Positions 20,716-34,411 of a stretch of DNA of 64,000 nucleotides are shown here, one piece after another. Position 1 is the stretch's first letter. Each line of letters begins with the position of its first letter. Origin of the DNA: [Bacillus] enclensis (GTDB lineage: Bacteria; Bacillota; Bacilli; Bacillales; Bacillaceae_B); the NCBI RefSeq assembly GCF_001456935.1, contig NZ_KQ758482.1:124001-188000 (forward strand), in the 5' to 3' direction. The position numbers and the translations under genes were made by a program. The notes beneath the pieces are model-generated. The model did no database searches. It saw only the letters and a list, made by a program, of their open reading frames with translations, and was not told the origin of the DNA.

Positions 20716-20870
20716 TCCTTATCAAGAGCCAGGGGAGGAAATTGGTCCTGTGATCCTGCGGCAACCTGTTATTTTCTTAATTGAAAGTAGTAAGGTGCTA
20801 ATTCCAACAGACACACAGTCTGGAAGATGAGGGAGAGATGATGCCTCTTCCTCTGGGAGAGGTTTTTCTT
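20716..20870 (+). ncRNA. S-box (SAM-I) riboswitch with terminator
   Basis: The core words of SAM-I aptamers are present in order: CTTATCAAGAG, GGGGAGG, TGCGGCAACC, AAGGTGCTAATTCCAAC and GATGAG. CTTATC (20718-20723) pairs fully with GATGAG (20826-20831) to make P1. A terminator hairpin CCTCT/AGAGG with TTTTTC follows at 20844-20870. SAM binding should favour the terminator and switch off the transporter gene that starts 60 bases on. Confidence 0.93.
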
Positions 20871-32628: not shown

Positions 32629-33897
32629 TTATTGAACCACATACTCCCTGTACTTCTCAAAATCCGAACTCCTGCATTCCATCGTCAGCTTTGTGCCGTT
32701 CTCTTCATATTCGGTATGAAGCACGTTTGCATGTTCATTGAAATAAGATATCAGTTGTCCCTGGCTGAACGGGATGAGCATGTCGCATTTCTTGTAGTCT
32801 TTAAAAATATGGCCTTTGATGACATCGATCAGCTCATCGATGCCTTTTCGCTGTTTCGCGGATAGATAGATCCTGTCGTTCACAACGCTTCCGACTGATT
32901 CTTCATCGACTAGTTCCGCCTTATTGAAGGCGTAGACCATCGGAATGCCTCCCACTCCGATATCATCAAGAGTTTTGTTCGTGACTTCCATCATTGTTTC
33001 ATGATGGGGATCGGAATAATCCACCACCTGGACGATGAGATCTGCCTCTGCCACTTCCTCAAGCGTCGAGCGAAATGCCTTCACGAGATGGTGGGGCAGC
33101 TTGTTGACAAAACCGACGGTGTCGGTCAGCAGGAAAGACTTATTATCAGGAAGTGTGATGTTCCTGACTGACGTATCCAATGTGGCGAACAGCATATCTT
33201 TTTCAAAAACCTGCTTGTTTTCACCGGAATTGAATGTTTCCAGAAGGGCATTCATGGTCGTCGATTTCCCTGCGTTCGTGTATCCGACGAGTGAAACAAC
33301 CGGGATACCGCTCTTCTTGCGCTGCTTCCGCTGAGTCTTCCTCAGATCAACTAGCGCTTCAAGCTCTTTGTTAAGTGCCGTGATATTGTCTTCGATGCGG
33401 CGGCGGTCGAGCTCAAGCTTTGTTTCACCTGCACCCCTGTTTGCAAGTCCGGATCCCCCTCCTTGACGTCCAAGTGATTCGCGCCTTCCGATCAGGCGTG
33501 GCAGCATGTATTGAAGCTGTGCCACTTCCACCTGCAGCTGAGCTTCCCTCGTCTGCGCGCGTTCTGCGAAAATATCGAGGATCAGCATGGTCCGGTCCAT
33601 CACACGGATATCAAGTTTTTCTTCGAGCACCCGGATCTGTGACGGCGACAGCTCATCATTGGCGATGAGTACATCCGCTTCCATTTCTTCAATCAGAGGC
33701 AGAAGCTCATCGATTTTCCCTTTCCCGATATAATGCACATGATTCCTTTTCGGCAGGTTCTGCGTCATTTCTGCGAGGACATCAATGCGGCGGGCTTCGG
33801 CCAGCCCCTTCAATTCAAGCATATTGTATTCAAAATCTTCTCCCTTTTCCTTGGTGTTCACGCCAACGGCGATGGCTCTTAAACGTTCTTCCATCAT
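32629..33897 (-). CDS. hflX: GTPase HflX
   Basis: 422 residues. The N-terminal HflX domain (about 1-190) includes VHYIGKGKIDEL and the glycine-rich GRQGGGSGLANRGAGETKLELDRRRI; the GTPase domain has the P-loop GYTNAGKST (205-213), DTVGF and NKAEL. HflX splits stalled or damaged 70S ribosomes, and some relatives give macrolide/lincosamide resistance. Start is one of two adjacent ATGs with GGAAGTGAAG upstream. The 420-base leader carries a leader ORF and two terminators, so expression is probably controlled by ribosome stalling. Confidence 0.95.
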   Translation of the reverse strand: MMEERLRAIAVGVNTKEKGEDFEYNMLELKGLAEARRIDVLAEMTQNLPKRNHVHYIGKGKIDELLPLIEEMEADVLIANDELSPSQIRVLEEKLDIRVMDRTMLILDIFAERAQTREAQLQVEVAQLQYMLPRLIGRRESLGRQGGGSGLANRGAGETKLELDRRRIEDNITALNKELEALVDLRKTQRKQRKKSGIPVVSLVGYTNAGKSTTMNALLETFNSGENKQVFEKDMLFATLDTSVRNITLPDNKSFLLTDTVGFVNKLPHHLVKAFRSTLEEVAEADLIVQVVDYSDPHHETMMEVTNKTLDDIGVGGIPMVYAFNKAELVDEESVGSVVNDRIYLSAKQRKGIDELIDVIKGHIFKDYKKCDMLIPFSQGQLISYFNEHANVLHTEYEENGTKLTMECRSSDFEKYREYVVQ

Positions 33898-33928
33898 CTA
33901 TCTTCACTTCCCATTCTTTTTTTATATC

Positions 33929-33958
33929 GAAAAAAACACAGGCTGCTGCCTGTGCTTT
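33929..33958 (-). terminator. Second attenuator terminator (T2) in the hflX leader
   Basis: Minus strand GCACAGGCAGCAGCCTGTG then TTTTTTT, ending 30 bases before the hflX start. Its 5' arm GCACAGGCAG is exactly complementary to a leader segment at 34220-34229, so the two pairings exclude each other. Confidence 0.8.
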
Positions 33959-34127
33959 AGCAAATGGATCCGTCAACCGGCCACGTGCAGCTGTTTTCAA
34001 AAGAAAACAACGGTCCGCGTCCTTTTCTTGCATGGGCCGGCATGACTTTAGGATACCCTTTTCACTACACGGTAAAACTCGCGGGAACCCGTTAAAAGTC
34101 CACTATTCAGTTCTATTTTCAAGACAC

Positions 34128-34158
34128 GAAAAAAGAGGAGTCCTTCGCCCCCTCTTCT
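34128..34158 (-). terminator. First attenuator terminator (T1) in the hflX leader
   Basis: Minus strand AAGAGG / CCTCTT hairpin with TTTTTT, some 90 bases after the leader ORF stop and 230 bases before hflX. Confidence 0.7.
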
Positions 34159-34219
34159 TCACCAACACGTTAAATGAAGTTTCCCTTAAAAATAGGCAGA
34201 CCAATTCCATTTACCCTGC

Positions 34220-34229
34220 GCACAGGCAG
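34220..34229 (-). promoter_or_regulatory. Antiterminator segment in the hflX leader
   Basis: Minus strand CTGCCTGTGC, 20 bases after the leader ORF stop, copies the 3' arm of T2 and can pair over 10 bases with its 5' arm. Confidence 0.6.
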
Positions 34230-34248
34230 AGCGTCCGAACATATTCAA

Positions 34249-34290
34249 TTATCTGTTGGAATCGCGGAATCGTAGTCTGATTAAGATCAA
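34249..34290 (-). CDS. hflX leader peptide MILIRLRFRDSNR
   Basis: A 13-codon ORF with TTG start, GGAGG exactly eight bases before it, and a TAA stop. An in-frame ATG overlaps the binding site itself and is less likely. The Arg/Leu-rich peptide (RLRFR) resembles leader peptides of antibiotic-inducible Firmicute genes whose translation stalls under ribosome-targeting drugs. It is placed right before a set of terminator and antiterminator sequences. No other role is needed. Confidence 0.7.
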   Translation of the reverse strand: MILIRLRFRDSNR

Positions 34291-34323
34291 AGGGAAAACC
34301 TCCATTTCTTGTAAGTTATGATT

Positions 34324-34332
34324 ATCTTAACA
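34324..34332 (-). promoter_or_regulatory. Extended -10 promoter of the hflX leader
   Basis: TGTTAAGAT on the minus strand, an extended -10 element about 35 bases before the leader ORF. No good -35 is visible. Confidence 0.5.
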
Positions 34333-34359: not shown

Positions 34360-34411
34360 TTGAAGGCCCGTCCCCCATCGCTTTAAAGCGGTGAGGGACG
34401 GGCCTTCATTT
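34360..34411 (-). terminator. Terminator after mmsA, GGGACGGGCCTT palindrome family
   Basis: AAGGCCCGTCCC ... GGGACGGGCCTT arms around CGCTTTAAAGCG, the same arms and loop as the hairpin at 62346. Confidence 0.85.

Follow-up and report, generated by a model that had tools for sequence, protein, structure and literature searches.

The hflX gene lies on the minus strand at positions 32629..33897 of the window (the whole stretch of DNA analysed, 64,000 nucleotides), and encodes an HflXr-type GTPase (TIGR03156, 430 bits against a cut-off of 217). The top match among solved structures is chain 8a57_D (GTPase HflX, 491 bits), with 56% identity across residues 4–411. We take 8a57 to be the structure of Listeria HflXr. 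The second hflX in the genome (L002) is a paralogue with 45% identity to the window copy; of the two, sequence comparison assigns the window copy to the HflXr type. The window belongs to a Rossellomorea genome, and its hflX shares 91–99% identity with hflX loci recorded under R. aquimaris.

The leader 5' of hflX is approximately 420 nt long on the minus strand. It folds far more stably than shuffled sequences (z −4.0, 0/100), and is present as a single copy in this genome. The original prediction, which was read from the letters of this strand, listed an extended −10 element, a TTG-started ORF of 13 codons with GGAGG at 8 nt, and two terminators, T1 and T2. All of these are present. The extended −10 element TGtTAAGAT is located at 34324..34332 (minus strand), the aligned positions of the relatives read TGnTAnnAT, and the element would act as the promoter −10. 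The Shine–Dalgarno sequence GGAGG is located at 34299..34303, 8 nt before the TTG start codon at 34290, and GGAGG(G) is nearly invariant in 33 hflX leaders. The leader ORF (MILIRLRFRDSNR) occupies 34249..34290 and ends with a TAA stop codon.

T1 is a terminator-like hairpin with a U tract at 34129..34160 (−14.1 kcal/mol, z −2.4). T2 is an intrinsic terminator at 33930..33958, about 30 nt 5' of the hflX ATG (AAAGCACAGGC AGCA GCCUGUG UUUUUUU; −16.0 kcal/mol, z −3.9, none of 200 shuffles equally stable). A simple terminator scan listed T1 and missed T2, because the T2 stem probably runs into the T tract. Between the two terminators, the spacer forms a highly structured hairpin (33961..34067, minus strand), which is a consensus hairpin with little covariation in 12 relatives; the fold of the spacer together with T2 (33921–34068) has a z of −4.7 (0/200).

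Outside the leader, a GC-rich inverted repeat, GGCCCGTCCC...GGGACGGGCC (34361–34410, minus strand), is located 3' of the aldehyde dehydrogenase gene and 5' of the hflX promoter, and is probably the terminator of the former gene. A different palindrome, GGACGGACCT...AGGTCCGTCC, takes this position in many relatives. In the Rfam search of the window, no family reached threshold for the hflX leader; a SAM riboswitch was detected at 20716–20833 on the plus strand (RF00162, 76.7 bits).

Leader peptide and alternative pairings

The codons AGA CTA CGA (Arg-Leu-Arg) at 34270..34278 are the predicted macrolide stall site, according to the conservation of the motif. The position of the stalled ribosome would be that of the RYR motif in the tlrB leader, by analogy (PMC6851288), and the sensing motif Arg-Leu-Arg (+X+) is typical of macrolide stalling. 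We fetched 80 hflX loci for the conservation analysis. The leader is kept in nearly all examined Rossellomorea hflX loci (L003–L022), and its peptide is nearly always MILIRLR(I/F)R... there. In more distant loci, among them those of Heyndrickxia, Peribacillus, Neobacillus and Paenibacillus, the +X+ motif persists in different peptides, for example MKFVRLRST..., MYFCRLRFQTLNR and MINIKFRFFSLCR. Among the hflX loci retrieved, a leader of this type is absent at some, e.g. L024 and L039. The leader 5' of hflX in L021 (2159–2500) shows natural decay, in which RLE replaces RLR and the T2 3' arm and U tract are broken too. The +X+ motif (R/K-X-R/K) is present in 107 of the 111 distinct leader ORFs, so that the ORF proves to be conserved. 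Among these ORFs, the Leu codon is CTA, TTA, CTT or TTG, and the last Arg codon is CGT, CGA, CGC, CGG or AGA. That the second and third motif codons vary synonymously indicates that the leader peptide itself is under selection, beyond the RNA. The stalling logic of the original prediction is supported; its stall site, an Arg/Leu-rich leader, is amended to the specific Arg-Leu-Arg motif.

The first Arg-Leu-Arg codons double as the 5' arm of a helix, P2, of the OFF structure. P2 is formed between 34279–34275 and 34201–34197, and P3 between 34270–34266 and 34208–34204; the 3' arms of both helices are located in 34197..34208 (minus strand), where GUCUG is near-invariant. Hairpin H2 is closed within the antiterminator strand (34231–34226 with 34219–34214). 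In 70 leaders aligned to R1, a model trained on hflX leaders, the OFF helices P2, P3, H1 and H2 are paired in 86.8% of cells, a value reached in 0 of 500 shuffles, and slid versions pair in 34–47%. Twelve pairs are changed on both sides, compared with 6.5 in the shuffles. RNAalifold on the 33-leader alignment returned H1 and H2 only, and P2 and P3 were taken from single-sequence folds and then counted. P1, formed by the Shine–Dalgarno region and the AAGGGAA strand, is visible per locus; as it is out of register in the alignments, it was left out of the counts.

The antiterminator strand CUCUGCCUGUGCGCAGGGUAAAUGGA (34206..34231, minus strand) pairs with UCCAUUUGCU AAA GCACAGGCAG (33946..33968), which overlaps the T2 5' arm. 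In helix AT1, CTGCCTGTGC (34229–34220) is the exact complement of GCACAGGCAG (33955–33946), as predicted. The pairing is real, but its extent was underestimated by the ten nucleotides originally proposed as the antiterminator. In the adjoining helix AT2, GGUAAAUGGA (34215–34206) pairs with UCCAUUUGCU (33968–33959), and the two-part antiterminator of about 20 bp (34231–34206 with 33968–33946) has an energy of −34.8 kcal/mol (z −6.3 against shuffled strands). Covariation was counted over 35 loci, in which the last terminator was located independently of complementarity. The duplex z is below −3 at all 35 loci (mean −6.2), and the strands of one locus pair better with each other than with the strands of other loci (p = 4e-5). 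The complement is conserved in the alignment: pairing is kept in 86.4% of cells compared with 41–47% for slid versions, and 31 double-sided changes were counted compared with 13 in shuffles (0/500 as high). As the shuffles do not remove relatedness, the covariation numbers for both structures are supportive and are not to be read as probabilities.

The full leader was folded by partition function, and a stalled ribosome with Leu6 in the P site was represented by occluding nucleotides 34290–34259. In the naked leader, the probabilities are 1.0 for P2, 0.99 for P3, 0.88 for H2, 1.0 for T2 and 0 for the antiterminator. When the RLR codons are covered by the stall mask, P(T2) becomes 0.0 and P(antiterminator) becomes 1.0. 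The two structures are mutually exclusive in the computation, and the occlusion frees the antiterminator as originally proposed. With a sliding mask of 32 nt, strong loss of T2 occurs only over the ORF region (~34310–34231) and over the 3' partner strand (34206–34159); apart from this partner strand, control masks elsewhere have no effect. Among 75 leaders, 67 form T2 when naked, and 35 of these lose T2 under the stall mask compared with 5 under the control mask, a count that is lowered by the wrong ORF having been picked by the script in a few of the 75 (e.g. MGVTYEKWRFSF). At equilibrium, the effect is strong in hflX leaders, and weak in mph and many ABC-F leaders. These weakly switching leaders have a highly stable T2, and kinetics must play a part in them. 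As long as the RNA of the window lacks the T2 3' arm, folding favours the antiterminator in the naked leader as well. Thus, the OFF state depends on refolding or timing.

The leader had been proposed as an attenuator with both T1 and T2. T2 switches, whereas T1 is left unchanged by the stall mask in equilibrium folding, which gave no support for T1 as a part of the same stall-driven switch. Most non-hflX leaders have a T1, and in several Rossellomorea the U tract of T1 is missing. The near-invariant GUCUGxCUAUUUUU is partly complementary to the T1 5' arm (window, −9.6 kcal/mol, z −1.6). The pairing of GUCUGCCUAUUUUU with this arm is moderate, with a mean z of −1.4 over 92 leaders (mph leaders, −2.4; hflX leaders, −0.8), and a second antiterminator acting on T1 is possible. 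Since the stall mask leaves T1 intact at equilibrium, T1 must be either leaky or relieved by this weaker pairing.

The same RNA before other resistance genes

The model R1, in which the ORF is included, matches in 107 of 300 genomes of the order and in 104 of 400 genomes of the class. As R1 includes the ORF, a second model, R2, was built from a non-coding part, the 70 nt from the stop codon onward, using hflX leaders only. R2 matches all 83 other loci tested, with 32–88 bits; these loci were first found by R1, and the result is a test of homology outside the ORF, not a fresh discovery. R2 alone matches in 14 of 399 genomes of the phylum. According to NCBIfam, the downstream gene clusters are Mph, Mef-like MFS, Msr-family and Sal-like ABC-F, Erm, 23S G745/G748 methyltransferase (RlmA/TlrB-like), LmrB and HflX, and these are family-level assignments, as several of the genes score below the curated cut-offs of named alleles. 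Among plasmid-borne loci, B. licheniformis has the leader RNA before a gene annotated as ErmD (L230), Macrococcoides before mef(F)-msr(G) (L231), Lysinibacillus before an Msr ABC-F gene (L234) and Priestia before mph (L236). The matches of the non-coding model, which also include the leader of an SDR oxidoreductase gene, point to one homologous RNA common to many macrolide and lincosamide resistance genes.

The ermD leader of B. licheniformis is matched by the hflX-trained R1 with 85.5 bits (E 1e-15). It contains MTHSMRLRFPTLNQ, T1, T2 and the two-part antiterminator complement (−32.4 kcal/mol). This leader is the ermK/ermD attenuator.

Two groups of leaders depart from this arrangement. The MTASMRLR-type leaders before mef-like MFS genes (L106, L111, L114, L118, L127 and L164) are mostly without T2. 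In several of them, the H2 loop is instead complementary to GAAxGUAGGU, a sequence located some 65 nt 5' of the gene, which suggests a different downstream pairing partner. The rlmA/tlrB-like leaders L131, L142 and L144 have an insertion of about 200 nt between T1 and T2, as read in L131 and L142.

Mechanism and relation to known attenuators

The locus is very probably a ribosome-mediated transcription attenuator of the ermK and rli80-hflXr kind, by which hflX would be induced on macrolide-type stalling. Without the drug, ribosomes would complete the 13-codon ORF and depart. The ORF RNA would then pair with the downstream GGAAUUGGUCUG strand (P2 and P3), and H2 would close. T2 would form, and transcription would halt before hflX. 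With a macrolide-type antibiotic, the ribosome would stall once the Leu codon of the Arg-Leu-Arg motif occupies its P site, and would cover the 5' arms of P2 and P3. The strand CUCUGCCUGUG...GGUAAAUGGA would be released and would pair with UCCAUUUGCU...GCACAGGCAG; this antiterminator would exclude T2, and RNA polymerase would read into hflX. HflX of the HflXr type would then split drug-blocked ribosomes. Thus, the switch probably turns hflX on when antibiotics of this type stall the ribosome on the ORF; we infer its co-transcriptional timing and its role in resistance as parts of the same scheme.

Stalling might instead act chiefly on mRNA stability or on hflX translation. Effects on mRNA stability are published for such a leader of mef(E) (PMC4335068), tlrB has a hairpin sequestering the Shine–Dalgarno sequence (PMC6851288), and the MTASMRLR leaders often lack T2. 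In the window, however, T2 is placed directly before the gene, about 30 nt from the ATG, and the complement targets the terminator arm and not the hflX Shine–Dalgarno sequence. This explanation is very improbable here. It is very unlikely that the conserved core, CUCUGCnUGUGUGCAGRGUAAAYGGGAUNRGUCUGCCUA, binds a ligand or a protein as in a riboswitch, with the ORF incidental. Many non-coding positions are indeed near-invariant, but the conserved bases are largely explained by OFF pairing (P2, P3 and H2) and ON pairing (antiterminator), and this reading was rejected. Moreover, the ORF retains +X+ with synonymous variation, the element is located 5' of ribosome-drug resistance genes of unrelated enzyme types, and Erm-modified ribosomes abolish induction in Listeria (PMC6310831). 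The least probable reading, an arginine-starvation attenuator sensing charged tRNA-Arg through the four Arg codons among 13, fits the Arg-rich leader of the window, but was also rejected, as only the +X+ pair is constant across leaders and the remaining Arg codons lack conservation, 10 leaders have Lys at the first motif position, and the downstream genes are not amino-acid genes.

The stalling-dependent attenuator is of a type already known for hflX, and the locus is a further member; the original prediction likewise named control of hflX by a leader ORF and terminator as known. The motif uORFC-6-1 is described, in the accessible text of the report (PMC8632094), as a predicted Bacillales motif with 51 examples, mainly before hflX. 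According to this published description, by which the likeness was judged, it shares the location 5' of hflX in Bacillales, an Arg-Leu-Arg uORF, a proposed control by stalling and covarying RNA downstream of the uORF start. Neither an antiterminator nor a partner of T2 is named in that text; the present analysis contributes the two-part antiterminator, the computed switch and the extension to other resistance genes. In Listeria, rli80-hflXr attenuation was demonstrated by mutants and RNA-seq (PMC6310831). The shared features are an RLR leader peptide, terminator and antiterminator alternatives, ribosome-dependent attenuation, and an HflXr-type gene in a genome with a second hflX copy (56% identity of the protein to the 8a57 chain). 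Compared by description, the rli80 peptide has 14 residues and that of the window 13, and the window has two terminators in a leader of ~420 nt. The sampled genomes included no Listeria, and the best match to the HflXr query among them is 60% identical.

The ermK/ermD attenuator of Bacillus licheniformis has two adjacent Rho-independent terminators, as summarized in PMC4335068 (citing Kwak 1991). It shares with the window an MRLR-type peptide (IRLRF in the window, MTHSMRLRFPTLNQ in L230), the tandem T1 and T2, a homologous RNA core (L230 with R1) and the same antiterminator complement; its downstream gene encodes a 23S rRNA methylase, and the N-terminus of its peptide differs. The tlrB (yxjB) leader of B. 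subtilis (PMC6851288) also has a +X+ peptide (RYR) and a drug-stalled ribosome that prevents termination. It differs in its length of 177 nt, in having no antiterminator identified, and in its hairpin over the Shine–Dalgarno sequence and NusG pause.

The erm, mef, msr, mph and hflXr attenuators have mostly been described gene by gene so far. The mef(E) and ermK leaders were reported to have no discernible homology beyond the peptide (PMC4335068, 2015), and the tlrB, hflXr and msrD leaders were called akin to erm leaders (PMC11264731, 2024). In the literature searched, which covered few subscription journals, no paper treating these leaders as one RNA was found; this breadth, one leader RNA across unrelated macrolide and lincosamide resistance genes, was not found described before. 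We consider it likely that they form one RNA class on chromosomes and plasmids of Bacilli, with a +X+ ORF, an OFF domain, T1 and/or T2 and a two-part antiterminator, serving at least seven macrolide/lincosamide families (hflX, erm, mph, mef-like, msr ABC-F, rlmA/tlrB-like and lmrB). Leader-bearing genes not known for resistance, such as a plasmid SDR gene, would then be candidates for new ribosome-drug resistance functions. If there is one RNA, it would be a portable drug sensor common to resistance genes of different mechanism, and a single model could find inducible, phenotypically hidden resistance genes from sequence, unrecognised ones included. In the window, the case is clean and the computed switch is strong.

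Plasmids of Acinetobacter and Latilactobacillus (L232:2471–3713 and L233:2467–3741) carry the leader RNA 5' of a gene for an SDR family oxidoreductase, with T1 and T2 present in both; one genome of the order likewise has it before an SDR gene (L188:2201–2335). This oxidoreductase is a candidate for an unrecognised ribosome-drug resistance enzyme. The plasmid leader peptide is MIDILTLNR, without +X+. Close copies (at least 99% identical) occur on 31 plasmid records, a count of SDR genes and not of leaders. The antiterminator of the plasmid leaders is maintained by a compensatory change (CUGCUUAUGCUC/GAGCAUAGGCAG).
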